DNA of 32,869 nt from the IMG/VR virus record IMGVR_UViG_3300030390_001658, positions 445 through 33,313 of that record. One strand, written 5' to 3'. Position numbers and translations under genes: made by a program. Under the pieces are notes generated by a model. That model had not been told where the DNA came from. It searched no databases and was given only the letters and a program-made list of their open reading frames with translations. How positions within the stretch are numbered: position 1 is the stretch's first letter; every line of letters starts with the position of its first letter. Positions 1 through 32,869 of the stretch are shown here, piece after piece. This stretch comes from a virus.

Positions 1-680
1 TCCAAAAACTGACTCCATTAAAAACATATCTTCAACCCAACCTTTGTAATCTGTGTAAGGCGTATCTGTTACAACGTCCATATCCTGCCTATAAAAACCG
101 AAGCTTTCAAGATTAAACAAGCCTTCAACGTTTGCTGATTTTGTTATTGTATTAACGTCTGCCCGCGCGTTTGTTGTGAACGTGTTTAAGTTGTTTAAGT
201 CGTCAACTTCAATTGATAATATATAAGAATCACCGTCATTTAAAAGGGCTTTCTGTGAAGCGTTAAAACGTGTCGTAAAATTAATCTTTAATTGATTTGA
301 AGGAACACTTCCCGCAACAACAAGTAAATCTTCAATTGCTGTTGAAGAAACTGCGGTTGCGTTTCTACTTGTTAAAAGTGAATCAATTACAAAGTTTTCT
401 TCAAAAGTTTTTGTTGATGAAATACTATTTGCATCAGGTAACTTTGAAAAATAAGCTACTACTTTGTGATCAAAATTTAAATCAATTCCCGTTGGGCTTG
501 AAACAAATATTTCAACGTCCGTATCGTTTAAAGCGTCTAAAGAAGTTAAAACGTTTCCTGTACTATCCTTATAAGTAATCGAATCAACCATAAAAGCGGG
601 CTGATTTCCGTTAAAGTTTTCATCAAAGCCGCCTGAATTACCCAGTGTTTGATTTTCAAAAACAAATTTTCTTTCATTTG
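1..680. repeat. Left copy of the variant terminal overlap
   Basis: These 680 bases align without gaps to 32190-32869 with 25 mismatches by my count (about 96.3% identity). The reading frame of the tail gene is the same in both copies. The match runs exactly to both window ends, which is what a circular or terminally redundant contig gives when its ends come from slightly different variants. The implied unit is 32,189 bp. Confidence 0.9.
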
Positions 681-10895: not shown

Positions 10896-11747
10896 TTAAA
10901 CTTCTTCTTTAATTGCAACAACGTCCCACTTGGTCCCCTGTTCGCTATAAATTAAACCAATATATAAAATTTTGTTTGCTGTTGTTGTTGTTGGTAAAGT
11001 TACCCCTATCGCTCTATAAATAGCGTTGAAAGTTAAAGCCCTTGAAGTTCCGTTGTCCGCAATTCTTAAAATTAACTTCATACCAGTTGAAGCCGTACCC
11101 GTTGGGGCTGCAATTGTTAAAGCTGTAGCCAAATCGTTAACGCTTTCCTGTTGGTTTTCGTCAATATTTGGGGTTAAAGTTGTCGCTGTTTCTGTGTTGT
11201 TGTTAATCGGATTTATTAAAGTTTTTCTTTTTATACTTTTTTTAACAAAAGAAGAAGAAGAATCTTCAATAATAAATTCGTCCTGATTTGCAACAGTTGT
11301 TTTTTCAGTTATTGCGGTTATTTCGTTTGCTTGGTTTACGTGGACCGCGTTAACGTCTGAAGTTGCGGGTAAGTTCCCAATAGTAATTTTTTTCTTATTG
11401 TTACTATTCGCAGCATCTTCAATCAATAAAAAATCGTTTGCCGTTGGAGTAGCTTTTGAAGCAACGCCCGCAATTTCGTTTGCTTGGTTTACGTGGACCG
11501 CGTTAACATCTTCACCACCTGAAGCCCCCGCTTGCGCTTCAGCCTGCCAAGTTCCGATTTGATCGGCAAAAACTTCATTACTTGCAAATGTAGGTGAAAC
11601 GTTTGAAAACAAATAACCGTTTCCGTCTGGAAAGTTAACTTTGTTGTCCCTTACTGTTATTTCAATTTCGTTTAAATTGTAATATTTAACAAAAGAATCT
11701 TCTTTAAATTTTAAAAAACCCCCTGCCCTTGAAAATACTTTTGCCAT
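10896..11747 (-). CDS. Repeat-containing head fibre or neck fibre protein, 283 aa
   Basis: The N-terminal 75 residues resemble the whole of the neighbouring 80-residue protein (shared GGxLK...EI..RDN...F.dG...F.....ADQiG pattern), pointing to an old duplication. Next come two copies of a unit of about 51 residues starting DVNAVHVNQANEI, with an LIED....KKKITIGNLP-type motif that I recall from many phage fibre proteins. The C-terminal part (about 190-283) is a separate beta domain (ILRIADNGTSRALTFNAIY). The ATG shares a base with the upstream stop (TAATG). The location just after head genes suggests a head or neck fibre that binds cell surfaces or decorates the capsid, rather than the main tail fibre. 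Confidence 0.7.
   Translation of the reverse strand: MAKVFSRAGGFLKFKEDSFVKYYNLNEIEITVRDNKVNFPDGNGYLFSNVSPTFASNEVFADQIGTWQAEAQAGASGGEDVNAVHVNQANEIAGVASKATPTANDFLLIEDAANSNNKKKITIGNLPATSDVNAVHVNQANEITAITEKTTVANQDEFIIEDSSSSFVKKSIKRKTLINPINNNTETATTLTPNIDENQQESVNDLATALTIAAPTGTASTGMKLILRIADNGTSRALTFNAIYRAIGVTLPTTTTANKILYIGLIYSEQGTKWDVVAIKEEV
11320..11507. repeat. Direct repeat inside the fibre gene
   Basis: The 35 bases at 11320-11354 recur exactly at 11473-11507, offset by 153 bases (51 codons). The repeat encodes VNAVHVNQANEI in both copies, while the rest of the 51-residue units has diverged. Strong DNA identity within divergent units suggests recent conversion or a constraint on this segment. 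Confidence 0.85.
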
Positions 11748-18120: not shown

Positions 18121-18144
18121 AATTTAAGATAAAAAAAATAAAAC

Positions 18145-18164
18145 AAAGCCATTGAAACGGCTTT
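18145..18164 (-). terminator. Terminator hairpin between methyltransferase and terminase genes
   Basis: On the minus strand AAAGCC and GGCTTT form a 6-bp stem with an 8-base loop, followed by GTTTTATTTTTTTT. This is a good intrinsic terminator for the transcript ending with the methyltransferase gene, 25 bases before the small terminase ATG. Confidence 0.7.
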
Positions 18165-18212
18165 TAACATTCTATAATAATAACCCTAAAAAGGGAAATT
18201 ATTATTTCAATG
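18150..18212. repeat. Nested inverted repeats upstream of the terminase genes
   Basis: An outer inverted repeat (CATTGAAA at 18150-18157 with TTTCAATG at 18205-18212) encloses an inner imperfect hairpin (18174-18205: ATAATAAT, a two-base A/A mismatch, CCCT, AAAA loop, and complements). Its position between early genes and the small terminase makes it a candidate packaging (cos/pac) or regulatory site; a simple terminator remains possible. Confidence 0.65.
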
Positions 18213-18216
18213 TTAG

Positions 18217-18870
18217 CTACAAGACTACTTCAGTTCTTTTAAGTATCTCCTCGCATAATTGAGGTGGTATTTTACTTCTGTTATAGTTTCCTTTTAATCC
18301 TTGCGTCCCTGTTTGGCTTCCCCTCGGTGCTGGTTGGTGGTGGCAGTTAGTGTTTCCATTGAAGCACTCTTTTCTAGGTTTCCATCCGTTAGGGTTAAAT
18401 ATACTATAAATGTTATTACTCCATATATCTGTTGGTTTTGCTCTAAAATCTCCATAAGTACAATACCATACGGTAGTTCTTTCAAGTTCTGAAACAACAT
18501 TTAATTTTCTCAATTTACCTCTAGGATTTTCAATATAGTATTTTAAATCATGGTTTAATTTTAAAAAGTATTCGATTATATTCAAAGTTGATTGAACAAA
18601 TTTAACACCTCTCAAAGCGTTTTCACTTTTTGGCGTGTGGTCTTTATTCCAATGTTTGCCAATACTAGCCACACTAAAATAAGTACATGGAGGAGATGCC
18701 CAAATAAAATCAGGTATAAAAGGCACTTTTCCAACATCAAAATCATTTATGTCAATAACATAATCAATCTTTTCAAAATCATTTATATCAGAAGAAAAAA
18801 CTTCATGCCCTTGCTTTTCAGCTTCCTTACCTATACTTCTTGATCCAGCAAATAATTCTAATACTTTCAT
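18217..18870 (-). CDS. DNA (cytosine-5) methyltransferase, compact phage type, 217 aa
   Basis: Motif I is LELFAGSRSIG (residues 4-14), which binds S-adenosylmethionine. Motif IV is ASPPCTYFS with the catalytic Cys at C62. Motif VI appears as ENPRG (114-118), with ENP instead of the ENV of bacterial enzymes. A later WYCTYGDFRAKPTDIWSN stretch (135-152) corresponds to the conserved region typical of small phage C5-type methyltransferases. At 217 residues the target recognition domain is almost absent, and a Cys/His-rich segment (CFNGNTNCHH, 169-178) may take part in target binding. No restriction enzyme is encoded nearby, so the likely role is protecting phage DNA from host enzymes. It overlaps the upstream gene by 4 bases. 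Confidence 0.88.
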   Translation of the reverse strand: MKVLELFAGSRSIGKEAEKQGHEVFSSDINDFEKIDYVIDINDFDVGKVPFIPDFIWASPPCTYFSVASIGKHWNKDHTPKSENALRGVKFVQSTLNIIEYFLKLNHDLKYYIENPRGKLRKLNVVSELERTTVWYCTYGDFRAKPTDIWSNNIYSIFNPNGWKPRKECFNGNTNCHHQPAPRGSQTGTQGLKGNYNRSKIPPQLCEEILKRTEVVL

Positions 18871-19076
18871 CTTTTTTCTATTTTTTGTAAGTCCTCAATA
18901 AAACTTTGTATGTTTAAAAGAATGTTTACTTTTTCCTCTAATTCATCAGAACCATCTAGAGCATCAATACACCACCCTATTTTGCAATACATTACTTCTG
19001 TGATTTTCCAATCTTCAAAATTATCACTATCCCATTTATTTCTGTGTTCTTCTATTATCCTTTCTAATGCTTTCAT
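18867..19076 (-). CDS. Small acidic protein upstream of the methyltransferase, 69 aa
   Basis: The stop codon overlaps the methyltransferase ATG by 4 bases, so the two are probably co-translated. The protein is helical and acidic with two Cys and two Trp in the first half (EDWKITEVMYCKIGWCIDAL). No known family is apparent. Tight coupling to the methyltransferase suggests an accessory role, or simply membership in a block of small host-interaction genes. It is itself coupled to a 38-residue gene upstream. Confidence 0.68.
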   Translation of the reverse strand: MKALERIIEEHRNKWDSDNFEDWKITEVMYCKIGWCIDALDGSDELEEKVNILLNIQSFIEDLQKIEKR

Positions 19077-19189
19077 ATAGTTTTTTTGTAATTTTCAATA
19101 TGTTTGTTTCTGTAATATTCAATATGTGATTCACCTACAACATCATAGTTATTTTTACTTTCGTTATAGTGCTTAATTATATCATTCAT
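19073..19189 (-). CDS. Very small hydrophilic protein, 38 aa
   Basis: An ATG at 19189 opens a 38-residue frame that ends with an ATGA overlap onto the next gene, the same coupling used by its neighbours, which is the main reason to believe it. The product is rich in Asn, Tyr, Lys and His (MNDIIKHYNESKNNYDVVG at the N-terminus) and has no recognised motif. An AT-rich leader precedes it, downstream of the inverted repeat at 19241-19262. It could be a real micro-protein or a leader peptide for the next gene. Confidence 0.55.
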   Translation of the reverse strand: MNDIIKHYNESKNNYDVVGESHIEYYRNKHIENYKKTI

Positions 19190-19236
19190 ACAATTTATTT
19201 GTCAATAATACCATGCAGTAGCTAACAAGGTGTAAA

Positions 19237-19262
19237 ACGCAATAAAAAAAGCGTTTACACAA
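19237..19262 (-). terminator. Imperfect hairpin with T-rich loop after the 115-aa gene
   Basis: On the minus strand TGTAAACGC and GCGTTTTACA can pair with one bulged base around a T-rich loop. It lies just past the stop of the 115-residue gene, so it may be a weak terminator, an RNA processing site or an operator. There is no good T-run after the second arm, which lowers the confidence. Confidence 0.4.
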
Positions 19263-19265
19263 ACG

Positions 19266-20665: not shown

Positions 20666-20708
20666 AGCGTTTTAATTTATTAAGAGTTAAAGCCCCGAAG
20701 GGCGTTTA

Positions 20709-20873
20709 TTAGTTTAATATTAAATTAATTCTTTTAGATATTTCTTTTTGTGCTTTTTCTGTTAACATTTCAGCTTTTGCTTCTTCAATTGTAGCTCCAT
20801 TTTTAATGGAGTTTGAAAAATAATCAAATCCAATTGTTTCAATTGCTAATGTAATTTTGTGTGAATTTTTCAT
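20709..20873 (-). CDS. Small protein led by promoter P2, 54 aa
   Basis: I choose the ATG at 20873 (MKNSHKITLA), because the earlier ATG at 20903 lies inside the promoter and would start upstream of the predicted -7 element's end. The product is a short helical protein (ATIEEAKAEMLTEKAQKEIS) without Cys or membrane segments. It is the first gene after the second copy of the early promoter, so it should be among the most strongly expressed of the accessory block. I recognise no family. Confidence 0.62.
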   Translation of the reverse strand: MKNSHKITLAIETIGFDYFSNSIKNGATIEEAKAEMLTEKAQKEISKRINLILN

Positions 20874-20889
20874 AATGTTTCTTTTTTTA

Positions 20890-20949
20890 TAAAGATAAGT
20901 CAAAAGAAAGGATTGACAGTAAAAAAAATGATTTATTTGTTCAGTCGGT
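20890..20949 (-). promoter_or_regulatory. Promoter P2 with upstream operator-like box
   Basis: On the minus strand there is a 27-base box (20949-20923, beginning ACCGACTGAACAAATAAATC), then a -33-like CTG (20919-20917), a 19-base spacer, and a -7-like TATCTTTA (20897-20890). The ATG of the 54-residue gene follows 16 bases later. The box differs from the one at P1 (26815-26841) at a single base, and the similarity continues through the spacer to the start codon. The layout fits Bacteroidota promoters (TTTG, N19, TAnnTTTG). Confidence 0.7.
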
Positions 20950-20951
20950 GT

Positions 20952-21185
20952 TTATTTATTGTTTTTAATAAAAGAATCAAAAGCTTTTTTAACTTTTGTA
21001 ACTGTTTGCAGGCTGTTTTTATAAGTAGTAATTGAAACCGCTGATTCTATTCTTTTAATATGCGTTTCAGCAAATTTTTCAGGATCAACAACAACTTCTG
21101 CTTTATTAAGCTTCAACGGTCCACTTCTTTTTTTAAACTCATTAAGCCATTGAATAATGTTTTTTTCTTGTTTGTTCCTGATCAT
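20952..21185 (-). CDS. Small basic protein before promoter P2, 77 aa
   Basis: A basic, helical protein (IIQWLNEFKKRSGPLKLNKA) with a C-terminal Lys-rich segment (TVTKVKKAFDSFIKNNK). Its first 44 bases overlap the end of the upstream gene in another frame; there is no later ATG, so either the overlap is real or a non-ATG start is used. It ends 3 bases before the operator box of P2, placing it at the end of the first early transcript. No family is recognised. Confidence 0.6.
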   Translation of the reverse strand: MIRNKQEKNIIQWLNEFKKRSGPLKLNKAEVVVDPEKFAETHIKRIESAVSITTYKNSLQTVTKVKKAFDSFIKNNK

Positions 21186-21375
21186 AAAATAAAATTATTC
21201 TTATAGTACATTTTTCATTTACAAAATCATCAAAATTATAACCAGTTTCAAAAAGTACTTTCTTCGGCTTCTTATCTTTGGTAACTCTTTCAACTGCTTT
21301 ATTAAGTTGTCTTTCAATCTTTTCAAGATCATCAAGTTTTGATTCTTTTATTCTAAAATTAAATACTTCTTTCAT
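21142..21375 (-). CDS. Small uncharacterised protein, 77 aa
   Basis: The N-terminal half is a charged helix (KLDDLEKIERQLNKAVERV) and the C-terminal half is beta-rich with aromatic residues (VLFETGYNFDDFVNEKC and IRIILFYDQEQ). The start follows AAAACTAAACAAATG, a leader shared with other early genes here. The protein ends in an unusual basic/aromatic tail (KKHYSMA) that overlaps the next gene. No known motif is visible. Confidence 0.62.
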   Translation of the reverse strand: MKEVFNFRIKESKLDDLEKIERQLNKAVERVTKDKKPKKVLFETGYNFDDFVNEKCTIRIILFYDQEQTRKKHYSMA

Positions 21376-21386
21376 TTGTTTAGTTT

Positions 21387-22148
21387 TTAAAATTTTATAC
21401 TTTTTAAAGTTTGTTTTGCTCTTAATTTTCCGTTAATAAATTGCTCTAAATATAATTTTGAAGCGCGTTCTTTTATCTTTCTTTCTGCTGAAGGTCCAAC
21501 TTCTTCAAGTTTTAATTCTTCAATTAAATTATTTATTGAAGTTTTGTTATTCATTGTTAAATCGTTTTTAAGCGATTGTTTTAAACTCTTTCTACTCCTT
21601 ATATTAAATTCATTTACTTCTTCCTTAGAAACGATTAAAACCCCCTTATTAATCATTTTTAAGAGTATTGAAGAAGCAATTGCATCTTCAAAAACAAGTT
21701 CTGAATTATTTTTTAACGCTTTTTCATAAGGTTTATAAAGGCAATTATTAATAAATTCTTCTTCAATGGCCTGAACTTCTTCAGGATTCAAAGGTTTTTC
21801 AGCTTCAACCCTTTCAAGTTCTTTGTAATATTTCAAAAGTGCTTTGTTTCTAAATGATTTGTAAGCGTTTAAAACATCAGATACAAATTTTTGGCTAAAA
21901 TTTTGATAAGCTCCAGTTGAAAAACTTAATTTTCCCGCGTTGTATTTCGCAAAAGCTTCACGAATTTCTGTAAAACTAAAATCTTTAAATTCTGTTTTTA
22001 TGAATTTTAGCAACTCTAAAGAAGCCCAATCTTCAAGCGGTTCATTTACGCCTGAATTAACAGATATTAATTTTAAAGCGGTTGCAACTTCTTTAAATTG
22101 GTTTTCGTTGTAATCCCTGATTTTTAATTTACAAAAGTGACCAGTCAA
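21387..22148 (-). CDS. Uncharacterised protein downstream of the replication initiator, about 253 aa
   Basis: The open frame extends up to an ATG at 22259, but that would overlap the initiator gene by 131 bases and the first 40 residues look like shadow translation. A TTG at 22148 (overlap 20 bases) is a better start, though not certain. The protein is helical, rich in Lys, Glu and Leu, with YNENQFKEVATALKLISVNS near the start, a central KALLKYYKELERVEAEKPLN, and a basic C-terminus. I see no Walker motif, so it is not an evident ATPase-type helicase loader. Position behind the initiator suggests a role in replication, for example replisome assembly; this is an inference. Confidence 0.65.
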   Translation of the reverse strand: MTGHFCKLKIRDYNENQFKEVATALKLISVNSGVNEPLEDWASLELLKFIKTEFKDFSFTEIREAFAKYNAGKLSFSTGAYQNFSQKFVSDVLNAYKSFRNKALLKYYKELERVEAEKPLNPEEVQAIEEEFINNCLYKPYEKALKNNSELVFEDAIASSILLKMINKGVLIVSKEEVNEFNIRSRKSLKQSLKNDLTMNNKTSINNLIEELKLEEVGPSAERKIKERASKLYLEQFINGKLRAKQTLKSIKF

Positions 22149-22923
22149 CAGGTTCTGTTCCTCTAAGCTTAGAATTTTCGATATTTTCCCGAAGCCTTGC
22201 TTGAACGCCTTTACTTTTATTTCCTGTTTCGCTTGAATTTTCAATAATTTCATCTTCAAAAGTTTTTTGATTTAGGTAGGTTAAAGGGTCTTTACGAAAT
22301 TTTTTTTCAGGTGTTGATTTTACGTAAGCGGGCAAAGTTTCAAAAATCTTTTCAATTTCTTGGTTTTTAAGTTTGAAGAATTTGATTTTAACTTTTTCTT
22401 TGTTTCTGCTCTTATCGTAAGTTTCCCAAAAATTAAAAAATAACGCTTCTTTTTCAGCGCAAGCGGTTTTTTCTTTATTTACTCTTTTCTCTTCTTCTCT
22501 CTTCTCTTCTCCTCTCTTCTCTTCTAATTGGCTTTGATTCGCTTTTGATTCGCTTAACGAAATTAAAGCGGTCGGTTTATTTGGCTTTTTATTCGCTTTT
22601 CTTGGTCGTCCGCCTAACTTTCCGTTTTGGCTGTTTGTCAATGATTTAGAAACCCTTTCTTCAAGTTGTTCATTAAGAAACGAAATTGAAATAAAATCTT
22701 CTTCAACATTAATAAAACCTTCTTCAATTAAAGAATTAAAACTTTCTTCAGTTGCAAACCTGAATCTTTTTTTAATCTTAGAAAATGAAAGCCTTCCTTC
22801 TTTGGACCAATAAAGCGCGCAAATATTAATAAACAAACCTTGAGTTTCTAAATCTTCAATTGTAATTTCCCCGTCCAACCATTCAGAAGTAATAAATTTA
22901 AAATAAGGTAATTCTTTTGCCAT
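22129..22923 (-). CDS. Phage replication initiator / replisome organiser, 264 aa
   Basis: Residues 1-100 match the winged-helix N-terminal domain seen in phage replisome organisers (DUF4373/Lin1244-like): WLDGEITIEDLETQGLFINI, CALYWSKEGRLSF, and FNSLIEEGFINVEEDFISI. A glycine/basic NSQNGKLGGRPRKA hinge and a very polar Glu/Lys/Arg linker follow (about 110-160). The C-terminal domain carries FWETYDKSRNKEKVKIKFFK and RKDPLTYLNQKTFEDE, typical of phage replication protein C-termini. It should bind the phage origin and recruit host helicase and polymerase, none of which the phage encodes. Iteron-like repeats lie inside this gene (22531-22594). Confidence 0.82.
   Translation of the reverse strand: MAKELPYFKFITSEWLDGEITIEDLETQGLFINICALYWSKEGRLSFSKIKKRFRFATEESFNSLIEEGFINVEEDFISISFLNEQLEERVSKSLTNSQNGKLGGRPRKANKKPNKPTALISLSESKANQSQLEEKRGEEKREEEKRVNKEKTACAEKEALFFNFWETYDKSRNKEKVKIKFFKLKNQEIEKIFETLPAYVKSTPEKKFRKDPLTYLNQKTFEDEIIENSSETGNKSKGVQARLRENIENSKLRGTEPVDWSLL
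22487..22601. repeat. Polypyrimidine tract and iteron-like repeats inside the initiator gene
   Basis: On the plus strand about 22481-22525 is almost pure C/T with repeated CTCTTCT units. Just beside it are GCTTTGATTC (22531-22540), GCTTTTGATTC (22541-22551) and GCTTTTTATTC (22584-22594). Lambda-type phages hold their origin as iterons inside the initiator gene, so this is a candidate origin; the repeats could also simply reflect the low-complexity Glu/Lys linker they encode. Confidence 0.4.
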
Positions 22924-22965
22924 TGGTTTAAGGTTTTAAACTTGTTTAATTTTAGTTAAATTTTT

Positions 22966-23118
22966 TTAAGGCTTAATTGAAAAAACATCAACGAATTTTA
23001 CCCCGTCAATTTTAACAATAATTAATTCCTTTTTTTCGTGCAACTTGTTAACCCAAGTTATTGATTTACCGATAGTTTGAGCGTAATTGCTTATTTTCTT
23101 ATATCTTTTCAAATCCAT
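22966..23118 (-). CDS. Small helix-turn-helix DNA-binding protein, 50 aa
   Basis: An ATG at 23118 opens 50 codons. The sequence ISNYAQTIGKSITWVNKLHEKKELIIVKIDGVKFVD has the layout of a short excisionase/MerR-like winged HTH: a helix, a turn, a recognition helix and a beta hairpin ending in IDGVKFVD. I recall similar small proteins (SNYAxxxGxSxxxVxxW...IdGvkFI) in Bacteroidota phages. It sits immediately upstream of the replication initiator, so it may regulate early genes or assist initiation. No integrase is encoded, which makes an excisionase role unlikely. Confidence 0.72.
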   Translation of the reverse strand: MDLKRYKKISNYAQTIGKSITWVNKLHEKKELIIVKIDGVKFVDVFSIKP

Positions 23119-23163
23119 ATGTTTAAATTTAAGTATTCAGTTGTAAACCTGCAACTATTTTAA

Positions 23164-23349
23164 TCAATTGTTTTTAATTATTTCGTTAAGCATTGAATCG
23201 TAATTATATGCGATTTGTACAACTTTACCTTCTTCAAGGTGCAATTCTTTCATTGCGTAATTTATAGACTCTAAAACCTTTCCTGATTCAGTCGTTTTTT
23301 CTTCTAAACAACAAATTAAAAACTTTCTTTCTTTCAATCCTTCAATCAT
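23164..23349 (-). CDS. Small uncharacterised protein, 61 aa
   Basis: The ATG overlaps the stop of the resolvase gene by 4 bases, so it is translationally coupled to it. It is a short acidic alpha/beta protein with a CC pair (FLICCLEEKTTES) and a C-terminal segment QIAYNYDSMLNEIIKN. No family is recognised. A 45-base spacer containing a small inverted repeat (AGTTG/CAACT around 23141-23158) separates it from the HTH gene. Confidence 0.62.
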   Translation of the reverse strand: MIEGLKERKFLICCLEEKTTESGKVLESINYAMKELHLEEGKVVQIAYNYDSMLNEIIKNN

Positions 23350-23720
23350 AGTATTATTAATTTTAATTCAATTCTTGGGTTGCTTCGATCGACCCCTTTT
23401 TTCATATTTAATTCGTAACAAAGATTGTCATTCTTAATTGCGCCTTCATTCTGTAAGGAATCAAGAATTGCTTTTGCTGAATTGTCCAAATCAGAAGCCG
23501 AAGTTTTAAAATAAACAAATAAGTCTAACCTGAAGGGCTTGCATATATTTGCACTTTTCAATTCTTTACTGTAACATGATCGCGCAAAGATTTCAAACAT
23601 TCGCACCTTTTCAGATTTTGCAAGCCCCGCTTTGTAACCGTTCGGGGTTTTTCTTCTTATTATTTTATAAGTATTAGATTTTGAAGGCGCGTTTGCGTGA
23701 ATTGTTGCTTTGTATATCAT
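23346..23720 (-). CDS. rusA: RusA-family Holliday junction resolvase, 124 aa
   Basis: RusA dimers cut four-way DNA junctions during recombination and before packaging. The signature SDLDNSAKAILDSLQ...AIKND is present. D77, D79, K83 and D98 reproduce the spacing of the E. coli RusA residues D70, D72, K76 and D91, so the enzyme is probably active. The N-terminal part (IHANAPSKSNTYKI) corresponds to the first strands of the RusA fold, and the length is typical. It lies with an annealing protein and a ssDNA-binding-like protein in one operon, forming a compact recombination set. Confidence 0.92.
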   Translation of the reverse strand: MIYKATIHANAPSKSNTYKIIRRKTPNGYKAGLAKSEKVRMFEIFARSCYSKELKSANICKPFRLDLFVYFKTSASDLDNSAKAILDSLQNEGAIKNDNLCYELNMKKGVDRSNPRIELKLIIL

Positions 23721-23729
23721 TTAAGTAAA

Positions 23730-24152
23730 TTAAAAAGGAAAGAAGTCTGAAATTTTAGTTTTTGAAACGCTTAAAACTTCCCAGTTAACAACAGAATCTT
23801 CAAACCTTGTTTCAATTTTTTCAAAAGCTTCTTTTGTTTCGTTGGCCTGTACAAGATAAACTTCATTTACAGGCTTTCCTTTTTCTGCTTCAGCATCTTC
23901 TGAAACAAAAGAAACTTTAACTTTGAAGAAATTGCTTTTTGATTCGTCAATAATTACGCTTTGAATATTCATTTTATCGCATTTTATAAGCTCGTATTCT
24001 GCAATATATTCTTCAAGTATTGTTTGAAGCCTTGTTTCTGCTTCAATGAAGGAAAGCGAATTTAAAACGTATTCTTCCGTGGCGCTTTTTATTGTGCCAT
24101 CTTCTGCGCTTTGCTTCAGATATTTAATTTTAGTTAAAAAGTATTGATTCAT
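23730..24152 (-). CDS. DUF4494 family protein, 140 aa
   Basis: The protein has the characteristic pattern of DUF4494, a family I know from Bacteroidota genomes and their phages: a first strand YFLTKIKYLKQSAEDGTIKS, EEYVLNSLSFIEAETRLQTI, FFKVKVSFVSEDAEAEKGKP, VYLVQANETKEA, and WEVLSVSKTKISDFFPF at the C-terminus. Its function is unknown. Here it lies between Gp157-like and RusA genes in the early recombination/replication operon, which suggests a link to DNA metabolism. The length is as expected for the family. Confidence 0.9.
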   Translation of the reverse strand: MNQYFLTKIKYLKQSAEDGTIKSATEEYVLNSLSFIEAETRLQTILEEYIAEYELIKCDKMNIQSVIIDESKSNFFKVKVSFVSEDAEAEKGKPVNEVYLVQANETKEAFEKIETRFEDSVVNWEVLSVSKTKISDFFPF

Positions 24153-24154
24153 AA

Positions 24155-24487
24155 TTAATTTTTTAAATCTTGGTGATATTGTTTAAATGATCTTTCTTTC
24201 AATTCGTAAATTCTTCCTTCTGAACCGCTCATTATTAATTTAAACTTTTCAGTGTTTTTTTTAAAGAACTTAACGCAACACTGTGATAAATCCCTTGTAT
24301 AATAATCGCGCCCCGTTTCCCTTTTAAAAAGATTTTCTTTGGCTGTTTCTTGGTCTTTATCAGATAAGATCGCAAAATAATCATTTGAAACCCTATCAAC
24401 CCCCTTGTTTTTAAGTTTTTGGTGTGAAACTCCAATTGAAAAACAAATTTCATTTTGTATTAATTTTCTTATTATTTCCTTACTCAT
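24155..24487 (-). CDS. Uncharacterised early protein, 110 aa
   Basis: A basic, mixed alpha/beta protein with two adjacent Cys (SQCCVKFFKKN) and a conserved-looking YTRDL segment. It begins 5 bases after the Gp157-like gene and ends 3 bases before the DUF4494 gene, so it belongs to the same operon. I recognise no family; the location suggests a helper in recombination or replication. Another frame that is open inside it looks like a shadow. Confidence 0.65.
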   Translation of the reverse strand: MSKEIIRKLIQNEICFSIGVSHQKLKNKGVDRVSNDYFAILSDKDQETAKENLFKRETGRDYYTRDLSQCCVKFFKKNTEKFKLIMSGSEGRIYELKERSFKQYHQDLKN

Positions 24488-24491
24488 TTTT

Positions 24492-24989
24492 TTATTTTAT
24501 TGATAGTGAATAATTAGTTGTTAAAGTTGCCCCTGTTACTTCTTCACCTGAAGAAATGGCTTCTTTTATTGCTTTCTTATCAGGTGATTTTGTTAACTTT
24601 TCAATAATAAACGCTTCAGGTAATAAATCAGAATCTTCAACAGTAACTGAAGTTGATTTTCTTTTTTTGAACGTATGTAAGCCAACAATTAAACCTTTCT
24701 TTTCATCACCGAACAAATTAACCGCGTTTAAAAGCCTTCCTTTTAAATTTAGTATCAATGTATTGCTACGCTTTTTCATTGCTGTTAAACGCTTAATTTC
24801 GTCGTCTATTGAAGTGATTGTTCCTTCTTCTTTCTTAATTATTGAATAGTAAGCAATTGATTTGCTTTCAAGTTGCCCTTCAGCAATTTCAAGCTGTTCA
24901 GATTGTTCTTCTGTGATTTCGCCTTCAGCTTCTTCGATTTGATAAAATAGGTTTAATAAATCGTTTTGAATTTCGTAAAGAGTTGCCAT
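24492..24989 (-). CDS. Gp157-like protein (siphovirus Gp157 family), 165 aa
   Basis: The N-terminal half is a long acidic coiled coil (ALYEIQNDLLNLFYQIEEAE-like start, then EEQSEQLEIAEGQLESKS, residues 2-60). It is followed by the conserved DDEIKRLTAMKKRSNTLI and a C-terminal beta part with LHTFKKRKSTSVTV, PEAFIIEKLTKSPDKKAIKEAI and GATLTTNYSLSIK. This order matches the Gp157 family (PF05565), first noted in Streptococcus thermophilus phages and common beside single-strand annealing proteins. The biochemical role is not settled; a function in phage recombination or replication is usual. Confidence 0.88.
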   Translation of the reverse strand: MATLYEIQNDLLNLFYQIEEAEGEITEEQSEQLEIAEGQLESKSIAYYSIIKKEEGTITSIDDEIKRLTAMKKRSNTLILNLKGRLLNAVNLFGDEKKGLIVGLHTFKKRKSTSVTVEDSDLLPEAFIIEKLTKSPDKKAIKEAISSGEEVTGATLTTNYSLSIK

Positions 24990-25001
24990 TTTGTTTTAGT
25001 T

Positions 25002-25121
25002 TTAATTGTTTATAGTTTGTTTTTTGATAAGCTTAATTTCTTCAAAAATATCTTTTAAAATAATATCAAATTTCCCTTTAACTTTAAGCCTTAAAATTGC
25101 TTCAATAATTAATTGTTTCAT
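25002..25121 (-). CDS. Very small helical protein, 39 aa
   Basis: An ATG at 25121 opens 39 codons filling the space between two operon genes. The product is an amphipathic, basic helix (MKQLIIEAILRLKVKGKFDI and then KDIFEEIKLIKKQ). The hydrophobic spacing is compatible with a single coiled-coil or peptide that binds a protein partner. There is no recognised family, and the small size makes the call uncertain. Confidence 0.5.
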   Translation of the reverse strand: MKQLIIEAILRLKVKGKFDIILKDIFEEIKLIKKQTINN

Positions 25122-25140
25122 TCTGTTTTTGTTTAATAAA

Positions 25141-25371
25141 TTAATCCAGTTCTTTCAATTCTTCTTTTAACTGTTCGTATTGTTCACGCGCTTTTGTTAG
25201 TTGCTTAATTAAACGCTCTTTTTCTGTTGAAACTCTTTTGAATTCAAAAATGATTCCTGAATAACTTGAAGATTCTATTGAAAAGGAATTAAACCCTTGC
25301 TTCTTTGCTATTAAACAGGCGTTAATTAATTCGTGAATGTTATCTTTGTTTTGTTGTGCTTTGAATTCCAT
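25141..25371 (-). CDS. Small coiled-coil protein, 76 aa
   Basis: The first half has a mixed alpha/beta pattern (INACLIAKKQGFNSFSIESS) and the second half is a charged coiled coil (STEKERLIKQLTKAREQYEQ). The start follows a leader TTTACAAAATG lacking an SD motif. It is located between the ssDNA-binding-like protein and the Gp157-like gene in the early operon. No family is recognised. Confidence 0.65.
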   Translation of the reverse strand: MEFKAQQNKDNIHELINACLIAKKQGFNSFSIESSSYSGIIFEFKRVSTEKERLIKQLTKAREQYEQLKEELKELD

Positions 25372-25414
25372 TTTGTAAAGTTTAAAGGGGCTGAATTAAT
25401 CAACCCCTGATTAA

Positions 25415-25762
25415 TTAGAAAGGCAAATCATTTGCTGAATCGTCAATTGCAATTGTTTCAGGTTGTGCAATTGATCCTGAAGAAGGTATTAAATCAATTT
25501 TCCAAGCTTCAAGCGTGTTGAAATATTTAACTTCACCCTGTGGGCTTGTCCAATCGCGCCCCCTTAAATTAAAGTTAACCTTTACAGAATCACCAAGTTT
25601 AAAAACATCTAGTAAATCGCATTTATCTTGCGTTAATTGAAAGCTTACCTTTTGCGGGTATTGGCTTGAATCTTCAATTACAAATTCTCTTTTTGTAAAT
25701 TTTGCGCTGATTGTTTCAGCGTCTTTTAAGACTATTAAAGTCCCTTCGTGTTGTAGCACCAT
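25415..25762 (-). CDS. DUF3127 ssDNA-binding-like protein with SSB tail, 115 aa
   Basis: The protein has an OB-fold-like pattern of DUF3127 (FTKREFVIEDSSQYPQKVSF, then KLGDSVKVNFNLRGRDWTSP and LEAWKIDLI), a family of Bacteroidota. Its C-terminus DDSANDLPF (107-115) is the acidic tip typical of bacterial SSB proteins, which docks partner enzymes. It probably coats single-stranded DNA for the adjacent annealing protein and substitutes for a phage SSB. It starts 11 bases after the annealing protein gene. Confidence 0.85.
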   Translation of the reverse strand: MVLQHEGTLIVLKDAETISAKFTKREFVIEDSSQYPQKVSFQLTQDKCDLLDVFKLGDSVKVNFNLRGRDWTSPQGEVKYFNTLEAWKIDLIPSSGSIAQPETIAIDDSANDLPF

Positions 25763-25773
25763 AGTTGTAAAAT

Positions 25774-26340
25774 TTAATTGTTTGATTTTAAATTATTATA
25801 TATTTCTTGAAGTTCTTCTTTCTGTTCTTCTTTTTCAAATTTGTATTTATAAAAAACTTTTTCAATTTGACCTTCATTTAACGCCTTGCACTTTTCAAAA
25901 ATGTCATCAGTCATTAAAATTTGAACAATTTCCCCTTCAGGTAAATCTTCACCCGCATATATGTACAATCCTAACCCGTGCAATGCTAAAGCTTTTGTTG
26001 TGCTTCTTTGTATTGCTTTATTTACGTCAAAACTTGTAATATTATCAAGAGGAATTGATTTGTTTTTAAAATCCATTATCGGCAAATAATCAATGTGTTC
26101 AATGTTTTCAATAGTGATTCCAATTTTCACCCAACAACTTTTGCCGTCTGTAAAATAATTACATTGATTTACATTTTCATAAACTTTTCTTTCAACATTA
26201 GGATAATTTTTTTTGACTTCAGCCCAAGCCCAAGCCCATGACAAATATGTTAAATTTCCTTTTTTTTCTGTTTTGTCGTTTACATTAATACTGCTAAGAG
26301 TATCAAAAACCGTTTTTTTTAGTTTTGTTTTGCTTTCCAT
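25774..26340 (-). CDS. Single-strand annealing protein, DUF1071/Sak3-like, 188 aa
   Basis: The hallmark is INVNDKTEKKGNLTYLSW with AWAWAEVKK (residues 18-44), followed by a beta-rich body, the LPIMDFKNKSIPLD segment, SFDVNKAIQRSTTKALALHG and LGLYIYAGEDLPEG (about 104-137). These define the DUF1071 family of phage recombinases (Sak3-like). The protein should anneal complementary single strands during phage recombination and concatemer formation, working with the DUF3127 protein and RusA. The C-terminal 50 residues are a charged helical region. Confidence 0.9.
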   Translation of the reverse strand: MESKTKLKKTVFDTLSSINVNDKTEKKGNLTYLSWAWAWAEVKKNYPNVERKVYENVNQCNYFTDGKSCWVKIGITIENIEHIDYLPIMDFKNKSIPLDNITSFDVNKAIQRSTTKALALHGLGLYIYAGEDLPEGEIVQILMTDDIFEKCKALNEGQIEKVFYKYKFEKEEQKEELQEIYNNLKSNN

Positions 26341-26344
26341 TTTG

Positions 26345-26767
26345 TTAGTTGTTTTTGTTTGTTAGTCTATATAAATAAGCCCCGCAATCAATTAAAAAGG
26401 GGCTTTCTTCGGCTTCTAATAAATCAACTACTTGATTAAGTTTCAAAGTATAAAGCCCGTTTAAGTCGTCGATAAAATCAAGCCCTGTTAAGTATTCTTT
26501 TTTAGTTGCAATTTTGTAAATGCTTAAAAAATCTTGGTAATCTAAGTTTTCACGCTCCAAAGTTCTAAACAAAGAAGTCTGCGATTTTCCCAACTGTTCC
26601 GCAATTGTTCCCAGTGAGTAACCGTTTATTTTTATAAAAAAGTGAATTATATCTTTTTGATTCTTTGCCTGAAGTTCTAACTTTTTGATCTTACCGCTTG
26701 AAGTTTTTACTTCATAACTTTTAAAATCAGCCCGCAAGAACTTTGATTTTTTGATAAATTTTTTCAT
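26345..26767 (-). CDS. Helix-turn-helix transcription regulator, 140 aa
   Basis: I choose the ATG at 26767 (MKKFIKKSKF), since the upstream ATG at 26800 lies inside promoter P1. A HTH region is visible at about residues 35-80 (NQKDIIHFFIKINGYSLGTI, then AEQLGKSQTSLFRTLERE), XRE-like in arrangement. The rest contains helical and aromatic segments with no enzyme motif. It is the first gene behind P1 and is a natural candidate to bind the operator-like box present at P1 and P2, giving autoregulation and coordinated control of the middle genes. It ends 4 bases before the annealing protein gene. Confidence 0.78.
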   Translation of the reverse strand: MKKFIKKSKFLRADFKSYEVKTSSGKIKKLELQAKNQKDIIHFFIKINGYSLGTIAEQLGKSQTSLFRTLERENLDYQDFLSIYKIATKKEYLTGLDFIDDLNGLYTLKLNQVVDLLEAEESPFLIDCGAYLYRLTNKNN

Positions 26768-26781
26768 ATTGTTTCTTTTTG

Positions 26782-26841
26782 TGAAGATACAACCAAACAA
26801 AGGAATAACAATAGAAAAAATGATTTATTTGTTCAATCGGT
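26782..26841 (-). promoter_or_regulatory. Promoter P1 with upstream operator-like box
   Basis: On the minus strand a 27-base box (26841-26815, beginning ACCGATTGAACAAATAAATC) precedes a -33-like TTG (26811-26809), a 19-base spacer and a -7-like TATCTTCA (26789-26782), then the leader ACAAAAAGAAACAAT and ATG at 26767. It is the same arrangement as P2 near 20.9 kb. The promoter follows tandem terminators, so it probably starts the early transcript. Confidence 0.72.
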
Positions 26842-26860
26842 TATAATCAAGAATATTATT

Positions 26861-26890
26861 AAGAAGAAAAAAGCACCCCCGAAGAGGTGC
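26861..26890 (-). terminator. Strong Rho-independent terminator with TTCG loop
   Basis: On the minus strand GCACCTC and GGGGTGC (one T-G pair) form a 7-bp stem closed by a TTCG tetraloop and followed by TTTTTTCTTCTT. It ends the late/lysis transcript directly before promoter P1. Confidence 0.85.
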
Positions 26891-26900
26891 AAAACTAAAC

Positions 26901-26919
26901 AAAAAACGGCTACAAAGCC
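26901..26919 (-). terminator. Second short terminator hairpin in tandem
   Basis: GGCT and AGCC pair around a TTGT loop and are followed by GTTTTTTG on the minus strand. The stem is short, but the T-run and the place between the last lysis gene and the strong terminator make a tandem terminator plausible. Confidence 0.5.
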
Positions 26920-26933
26920 AAAGAAACAAAGCG

Positions 26934-31236: not shown

Positions 31237-32869
31237 GATTCTTCTTCTTTTGTTGTTCCTGATTCAGTTGCTTTTGTTGTTCCGTCCTCCATTAATTTAC
31301 CATCAACAGCACTACCAAATTTAATAAAAGGGCGTACTGAAATAGTAAACTTATTATCAGATAAAACTGAAGCGGTTGCTTCTTTTATAAGCCCTTCAAA
31401 TTCTAAACTTGAACCGTTATTTGTAACCTTTAATTTTGTTTCTGTAATTAATGGCTGAATTATATTACTAGCCAAAGGTATAATTAAAGAATCTGTTTCT
31501 TGAATTTTGTGATTCCCTCCACTTTCAAACTTTTCAAGTCTTAAATCACCGTTAACAACAGCCGTTAAAGGTATTGCGGTTGATAAGTTGCAAGTTCCTT
31601 TTACAATCGTGTCCTGTGAACGGTTAATTGTTTGGTCTGGATAGGCTATTCCAGAAAGCGTTTGCAATTCAATACTTGCTGAACTGTACATTGAAGCCCC
31701 GTTTTCGTTATAATCAAAAACTTCAATTGAAGGCAATCTTTCCCTGTATAAAGTAGATGTTAAAAAATTATCATTTGAAACGCTTGCTTCAATAAAAACT
31801 TTTATTTGATAATTGCTAATTCCTGAATAGTTTGATAAATTTTGGTTTAACCCGTCGTTTGGTTGTGTATTATCAAAGAACACGCCATCAACATTTAACA
31901 AAGCTAAATAATCAGCGTAAGACAAACGAAAAGGGTAGTAACATTTAAAAAGTTGTTTTGTTCCGCTTACCCCGTCGTTATAAAGTTGCATTTTATTAAA
32001 CCTATCACTTGAAGGAAGGTTATAATTTAAAGAAATATCTTTTGAAATTTGTTGAACCCCTGAAGCTTGCGGGCTGTTTTCTAAAACAAACCTTTGTGAA
32101 TAAATATCAAAATGCGATTCCGTAACCGTATTAAAAGCAACCAGTTTAAAAGTTAAATCTTGAATTTTTGCGTTTAATGCTTTATCAAGTCCAAAAACTG
32201 ACTCCATTAAAAACATATCTTCAACCCAACCTTTAAAGTCTGAATAAGGCGTTTCTGTTGCAACGTCCATATCTTGCCTATAAAAACCGAAGCTTTCAAG
32301 ATTAAACAAGCCTTCAACGTTTGCGGATTTTGTTATTGTGTTAACGTCTGCCCGCGCGTTTGTTGTGAAAGTGTTTAAGTTGTTTAAGTCGTCAACTTCA
32401 ATTGATAATATATAAGAATCACCATCATTTAAAAGGGCTTTCTGTGAAGCGTTAAAACGTGTCGTAAAATTAATCTTTAATTGATTTGAAGCAACACTTC
32501 CCGCAACAACAAGCAAATCTTCAATTGCTGTTGAAGAAACTGCGGTTGCGTTTCTACTTGTTAAAAGTGAATCAATTACAAAATTTTCTTCAAAAGTGTT
32601 TGTTGATACAATACTATTTGCATCAGGTAACTTTGAAAAATAAGCTACTACTTTGTGATTAAAATCTAAATCAATTCCCGTTGGGCTTGAAACAAATATT
32701 TCAACGTCCGTGTCGTTTAAAGCATCTAAAGAAGTTAAAACGTTTCCTGTACTATCCTGATAAGTAATCGAATCAACCACAAAAGCGGGCTTATTTCCGT
32801 TAAAGTTTTCATCAAAGCCGCCTGAATTACCCAGTGTTTGATTTTCAAAAACAAATTTTCTTTCATTTG
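31233..32869 (-). CDS. Large tail protein, C-terminal 545 residues (N-terminus cut by window edge)
   Basis: The frame is open from the right window edge to the stop at 31233. The GTG at 32780 is inside the gene and corresponds to an internal Met of the left copy. The N-terminal 226 residues match residues about 255-480 of the gene at 1-1440 with 12 substitutions, and the two join in frame to a 798-residue protein. The rest is beta-rich, with a SYQIKVFIEAS-like strand, DSTGNV and NGDLRLEKFES segments, and a Glu/Thr-rich C-terminal end (TTKATESGTTKEEES). Probably a baseplate or tail-tip component. No catalytic motif is seen. Confidence 0.8.
   Translation of the reverse strand, partial: NERKFVFENQTLGNSGGFDENFNGNKPAFVVDSITYQDSTGNVLTSLDALNDTDVEIFVSSPTGIDLDFNHKVVAYFSKLPDANSIVSTNTFEENFVIDSLLTSRNATAVSSTAIEDLLVVAGSVASNQLKINFTTRFNASQKALLNDGDSYILSIEVDDLNNLNTFTTNARADVNTITKSANVEGLFNLESFGFYRQDMDVATETPYSDFKGWVEDMFLMESVFGLDKALNAKIQDLTFKLVAFNTVTESHFDIYSQRFVLENSPQASGVQQISKDISLNYNLPSSDRFNKMQLYNDGVSGTKQLFKCYYPFRLSYADYLALLNVDGVFFDNTQPNDGLNQNLSNYSGISNYQIKVFIEASVSNDNFLTSTLYRERLPSIEVFDYNENGASMYSSASIELQTLSGIAYPDQTINRSQDTIVKGTCNLSTAIPLTAVVNGDLRLEKFESGGNHKIQETDSLIIPLASNIIQPLITETKLKVTNNGSSLEFEGLIKEATASVLSDNKFTISVRPFIKFGSAVDGKLMEDGTTKATESGTTKEEES
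32190..32869. repeat. Right copy of the variant terminal overlap
   Basis: This is the partner of bases 1-680, offset by 32,189. The 25 differences are scattered but denser near 32234-32270 and 32593-32666, and more than half change the protein. Some are paired, for example NFD versus DFN in the same stretch. Confidence 0.9.

Follow-up and report, generated by a model that had tools for sequence, protein, structure and literature searches.

The stretch of DNA analysed here (the window) comprises 32,869 nucleotides, bases 445-33313 of a 33313-base virus record, and carries nearly the same promoter-like sequence, with nearly the same upstream box, ahead of two separate sets of genes. Why a phage should keep two such copies, and whether they act as one signal for early transcription, are the questions that this locus raises.

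The phage host is probably a member of the Bacteroidota. When the portal protein was compared with 395 genomes of the phylum, every hit was distant (20-27%), which singles out no host. The ends of the window (1-680 and 32190-32869) are direct repeats of 680 bp with 96% identity and 25 differences. They point to a probable genome size of about 32.2 kb, in circular or terminally redundant form, with strain variation at the join; the virus record is not classed as having end repeats despite these sequences. Within the gene at 10896-11747 there is a direct repeat of 64 nt (80%), at 11295-11358 and 11448-11511, and no other near-exact repeat inside the window is as long.

Two copies of a box and promoter

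The box occurs twice on the minus strand, at 26815-26841 (P1; ACCGATTGAACAAATAAATCATTTTTT) and at 20923-20949 (P2; ACCGACTGAACAAATAAATCATTTTTT) in plus coordinates, and the copies are identical at 26 of 27 positions. Read on the minus strand it is ACCGAyTGAACAAATAAATCATTTTTT, the single P1/P2 difference falling at the degenerate base. This repeat is beyond chance. No other site in the window comes closer than 8 mismatches, and when the sequence was shuffled 60 times with dinucleotides preserved, the longest repeat with one mismatch or none never exceeded 25 nt (mean 20). Similarity between the two sites spans 96 nt (20854-20949 and 26746-26841; 74%), and a search with the P1 region against its own 33-kb record returned the P2 copy at E = 7.6e-19.

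The minus-strand order is the same at each site: box with T run, -33 element, -7 element, A-rich leader and ATG. The box stands above the promoter, about 75-85 nt from the ATG. Immediately downstream of it lies the -33 position, which reads TTG at P1 (26809-26811, minus strand) and CTG at P2 (20917-20919, minus strand), followed by TATCTTyA as the -7 element (TATCTTCA at P1, 26782-26789; TATCTTTA at P2, 20890-20897; both minus strand). The preliminary description had reported a 27-base box duplicated with a one-base difference, similarity running on through the -7 and the leader to the start codon, and genes that all lie on one strand; the first two are confirmed and the third holds for all sizeable genes, which are on the minus strand. 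It had also found the box to be no clear palindrome, and we agree; a 17-bp palindrome seen in relatives sits upstream of the box.

P1 lies just downstream of a strong predicted terminator, GCACCTCTTCGGGGGTGC followed by TTTTTT (26873-26890, minus strand; -12.1 kcal/mol, z -5.2), and a second, weaker terminator-like hairpin is present upstream at 26907-26920 (minus strand). These hairpins close the preceding genes, including that of an endolysin-like protein. Behind them, P1 appears to head an operon for recombination and replication, which begins with a 140-residue helix-turn-helix (HTH)-like protein and continues with the Sak annealing protein, a DUF3127 single-strand DNA-binding protein (SSB), a Gp157/Gam-like protein, a DUF4494 protein, RusA and a replication-initiation-like protein. 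The genes that follow the first, together with small ORFs, occupy 20952-26340 on the minus strand. Gene content, by itself, suggests that the box promoters are early.

The box family in related phages

A search with the HTH-like protein led to two IMG/VR records, L083 and L084, in which the protein is 87-89% identical and the box is again found ahead of its gene. In L083 the box is present at P2 as well, and L083 and L084 each carry a third copy, P3. A further record, L099, was found by scanning for the core of the box; its terminase is just 38% identical to that of the window over the aligned part, so L099 is a different phage. The box family therefore numbers eight copies in four IMG/VR records: P1 and P2 of the window, P1, P2 and P3 of L083, P1 and P3 of L084, and P3 of L099. 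Of the four records, three are closely related fragments, so part of the box conservation may reflect shared descent or homogenisation of copies. In the preliminary description, absence of the box from close relatives that share the gene order was to count against the proposal; in L083 and L084 the box is retained.

All eight copies lie upstream of a gene start and are oriented with the genes. The GAAC of the core ACCnAnnGAACAAATA stands 45-46 nt before the -7 element in every copy, and the distance from GAACAAATA to the -7 element is likewise 45-46 nt in all eight, with most spacers just 64-81% identical. Invariant columns account for 13 of 16 positions in the core and 8 of 36 in the spacer (Fisher p 1e-4, a value that is indicative since the copies are not independent). 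The -33 element is TTG in seven copies, the exception being the CTG of the window's P2, and the -7 element is TAnCTTTA in seven and TATCTTCA in one. With suitable spacing, these elements fit the housekeeping promoter consensus of Bacteroidota, TTTG around -33 and TAnnTTTG at -7 (PMC7366714), except at the last base of the -7, which is off consensus throughout.

Just upstream of the box, all six copies found in relatives show a 17-bp palindrome, TTTAGAATsAwTmTAAA, in perfect or imperfect form (for example at approximately L083:2479-2496, L083:4368-4384 and L099:117-133). At the window copies it is decayed or absent, and intact in neither. Support for reading the palindrome as a Fur-type site was sought and none was found.

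Viral contigs yielded no further genuine copy. They contained no match to the exact 27-base box, while the core gave 66 stretches, of which three real records remained and the others were devoid of promoter context; a relaxed box-plus-promoter pattern gave 56 stretches and the identical three records. In genome contigs the strict box-promoter pattern had no intergenic match and one chance hit, in a Psychroflexus coding sequence, and the lack of intergenic matches argues against a host regulon. INPHARED held no match to the HTH-like protein and no convincing match to the promoter, and Rfam gave no match. Two other genes were tried as tracers for relatives and set aside: Sak is mobile and led to unrelated phages, and Gp157/Gam was close in L083 and L084 alone, with others at 41% or lower.

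Small genes behind P2 and P3

P2 adjoins the stop codon of the gene at 20952-21185, immediately 3' of it. No strong terminator was found just upstream of P2, so read-through from P1 may cover the P2 genes. Directly behind the promoter are a 54-aa gene (20709-20873, minus strand) and a C-UUCG-G hairpin that would form a weak terminator (20692-20703, minus strand); similar hairpins close the P2 and P3 genes of L083. Homology between the window and L083 stops at the P2 leader or start codon and resumes about 540 bp later in the window and about 220 bp later in L083, such that the flanks are conserved and the genes behind the promoter are swapped.

At P3 the site is empty in the window (25128-25130, minus strand), whereas the relatives carry a complete cassette of box, promoter and gene. 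Relative to window positions 25128/25130, the insert measures about 366 bp in L083 and about 515 bp in L084, lies between homologues of 25141-25371 and 24492-24989, and is a clean insertion made up of a terminator, the palindrome, the box, the promoter, one gene and a hairpin. The stretch upstream of P3 is 97-99% identical in L083, L084 and L099, divergence begins between the -33 and -7 elements, and the genes that follow are all different (56 aa in L083, 106 aa in L084 and 54 aa in L099). Since the P2 gene of the window is 80% identical to the P3 gene of L099, the two slots appear to share a gene pool. No known family was found for the small P2 and P3 genes. P2 and P3 look like slots for exchangeable genes more than like the start of a second, conserved operon.

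These results divide the claim that one signal turns on both the replication operon at P1 and, at P2, a block of small genes running through to the methyltransferase. The shared part stands, in that a common promoter and upstream site precede early-type genes and are kept in relatives. The coordinated P2 block is not supported: the UUCG hairpin follows the first P2 gene, P2 and P3 are cassette-like, and the methyltransferase (18217-18870), 2 kb beyond the P2 gene, belongs to a segment (18217-19265) without an equivalent in L083. This gene probably does not belong to the core of P2.

Other features in and around these genes are recorded here as separate observations. The window's methyltransferase is missing from the available part of L083, and a different DNA methyltransferase of 261 aa with a TSPPYD motif is encoded at L083:9215-10000, between homologues of 21387-22259 and 21142-21375. 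At 19205-19176 on the minus strand, ahead of a 69-aa gene and the methyltransferase, stands a perfect TTGACA-18-TATAAT of the E. coli type, which is unusual in a phage of Bacteroidota; this segment is absent from L083, and because the sequence overlaps a short ORF it may be due to chance. The mostly non-coding gap between the methyltransferase and the terminase (18130-18214) is 90% conserved in L083, with differing upstream genes, and is a possible late promoter region. The record L234, from another phage, encodes a distant P2-gene homologue with a similar -7 element and leader and no box; a perfect palindrome, ATATATTTCCGTATACGGAATATAT, is found there just upstream of the -7 element TATCTTTG (approximately L234:7914-7942).

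Possible role of the box and known counterparts

As a whole, the data are best explained by a standard early promoter with a protein-bound upstream site combined with swappable cassettes, a reading that we consider somewhat favoured by the evidence and far from secure. Under it, a Bacteroidota housekeeping-sigma promoter (TTG / TAnCTTTA) would be joined at a fixed distance to a recognition site, ACCnAnnGAACAAATA, at about -66 to -48. A protein, most likely phage-encoded, would bind this asymmetric site, contact RNA polymerase and raise or time early transcription. P1, insulated by its terminator, would start the recombination/replication operon, and P2, as well as P3 in relatives, would head small self-contained cassettes of a promoter, one short gene and a hairpin. 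The cassette genes are swapped between phages, and the probable route would be homologous recombination at the promoter repeats, with Sak perhaps assisting. Constant spacing, together with a conserved core upstream of the -33, speaks for a protein in contact with RNA polymerase, and the position is typical of an activator. A counterpoint is the CTG of P2, where TTG would be expected.

The candidate binder is the HTH-like protein encoded by the first P1 gene (26345-26767, minus strand), one of two 140-residue proteins in the window, the other being the DUF4494 protein (23730-24152). Its Pfam match to HTH_38 is below threshold (E 0.075), its AF2 model has helices at 37-88 with a mean pLDDT of 62.5, and XRE-type proteins are among its best Foldseek matches, at E 0.2-1 and none of them significant. 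A search of solved structures by sequence returned nothing useful, and 300 genomes of the Psychroflexus family yielded one weak partial hit. Because the HTH assignment is weak, binding of this protein to the box is a possibility that we hold tentatively and do not expect on balance. Its predicted recognition helix is identical in the window and the relatives, so that, were it a binder, the box would be a better candidate site than the palindrome. A promoter that has to fire on entry could not rely entirely on its own protein product.

In phages the first gene of an operon commonly regulates that operon, and the constancy of both the recognition helix and the box would also suit a negative-feedback operator, at which the HTH-like protein, as the first P1 product, shuts the box promoters once early products suffice. 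We regard this as unlikely, given that the site lies about 15 nt or more upstream of the -33, outside the core promoter, that its strict distance to the -7 element suits polymerase contact better, and that XRE-type repressors usually bind palindromes as dimers whereas the box is asymmetric. Less likely still is an UP-type element for the alpha subunit of host RNA polymerase that works without a dedicated regulator. Although the A/T-rich AACAAATAAATCATTTTTT lies just upstream of the -33 and a T run is present in all copies, G and C are among the most strictly conserved bases (ACC, GAAC), in contrast to UP elements made of A/T alone, the A/T stretch beside the -33 varies more, and the strict pattern has no matches ahead of host genes. 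Least probable is a box with no regulatory role, in which recent duplicates or gene-converted copies were homogenised by inter-phage recombination, as swapped genes next to the repeat and homology through the leader might suggest, since the core was preserved and the neighbouring -33 to -7 spacer changed in sequence but not in length.

An early promoter with a protein-bound site and cassettes could also be taken further, with a new type of phage-encoded activator acting on the asymmetric box with the unusual Bacteroidota sigma factor, and the promoter serving as a docking site that swaps accessory genes, possibly for host takeover or anti-defence, into early expression. We think this extension doubtful; if true, copies of the box could list accessory genes in uncultured phages. 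A limited literature search for Flavobacterium phages brought up no relevant work on early promoters, and the control of transcription in the group therefore seems to have been little described. The repeated promoter with its fixed upstream site offers a marker of early genes, a regulator open to testing and a means of fishing out swappable early genes with no assigned function.

Among known systems, T4 middle promoters have a MotA box that replaces the -35 and lies at about -30. The box promoters are similar in having a phage-specific site at a fixed distance from a host-type -10 element, but here the -33 is present and the box is further upstream. Morons are genes inserted into phage genomes together with a promoter and a terminator of their own, and P3 of L083 and L084 is comparable as an extra gene with its own promoter and hairpin between genes that adjoin in the window phage. 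Unlike a moron, P3 uses the phage's own early-operon promoter family, and one slot holds different genes in each relative.

By analogy of arrangement, the closest counterpart appears to be the promoter early stem-loop (PeSL) cassettes of T4-like phages, reportedly the subject of work by Arbiol in 2010 and Comeau in 2014, followed by the SAS/ESAS of cluster K mycobacteriophages. PeSLs are described as composite promoter-terminator motifs that mediate modular shuffling (cited in PMC4503421), and PeSL-like shuffling is suggested also for a haloarchaeal virus (PMC3950731). The likeness lies in a repeated early promoter beside a terminator, between exchangeable small genes with no assigned function, and in gene content that differs behind the same promoter among the window, L083, L084 and L099. 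The composite is seen as a terminator directly upstream of P1 and P3 and a hairpin after the P2 and P3 genes, with no terminator directly upstream of P2. The phage type, host phylum, sigma factor and sequence differ from those of PeSLs, there are two to three copies per genome here versus a much higher density in T4-like phages, and the box family has a conserved asymmetric upstream box at fixed spacing. PeSLs belong to T4-like phages and carry the T4-type early promoter. Given an HK97-type portal and capsid, Terminase_3 and tape measure proteins and Bacteroidota-type promoters, the present system is not a PeSL member, though it would be PeSL-like in function. Along with the suggestion for the haloarchaeal virus (PMC3950731), the box promoters suggest that promoter-terminator cassette shuffling occurs also in phage groups unrelated to the T4-like phages.

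In the SAS/ESAS system of cluster K mycobacteriophages, the 11-19 SAS copies contain AGGAG and occupy ribosome-binding sites, with 3-7 bp separating them from the start codon (PMC3203893). Both systems are asymmetric, keep one orientation, are confined to the non-structural half, precede genes of different families and are absent from the host, and SAS too sometimes have a 17-bp inverted repeat just upstream (PMC3203893). The box differs in standing above the promoter, about 75-85 nt upstream of the ATG, and in having no AGGAG. Judged against these systems, the box promoter is new in sequence and, by analogy, would not be a new kind of arrangement.
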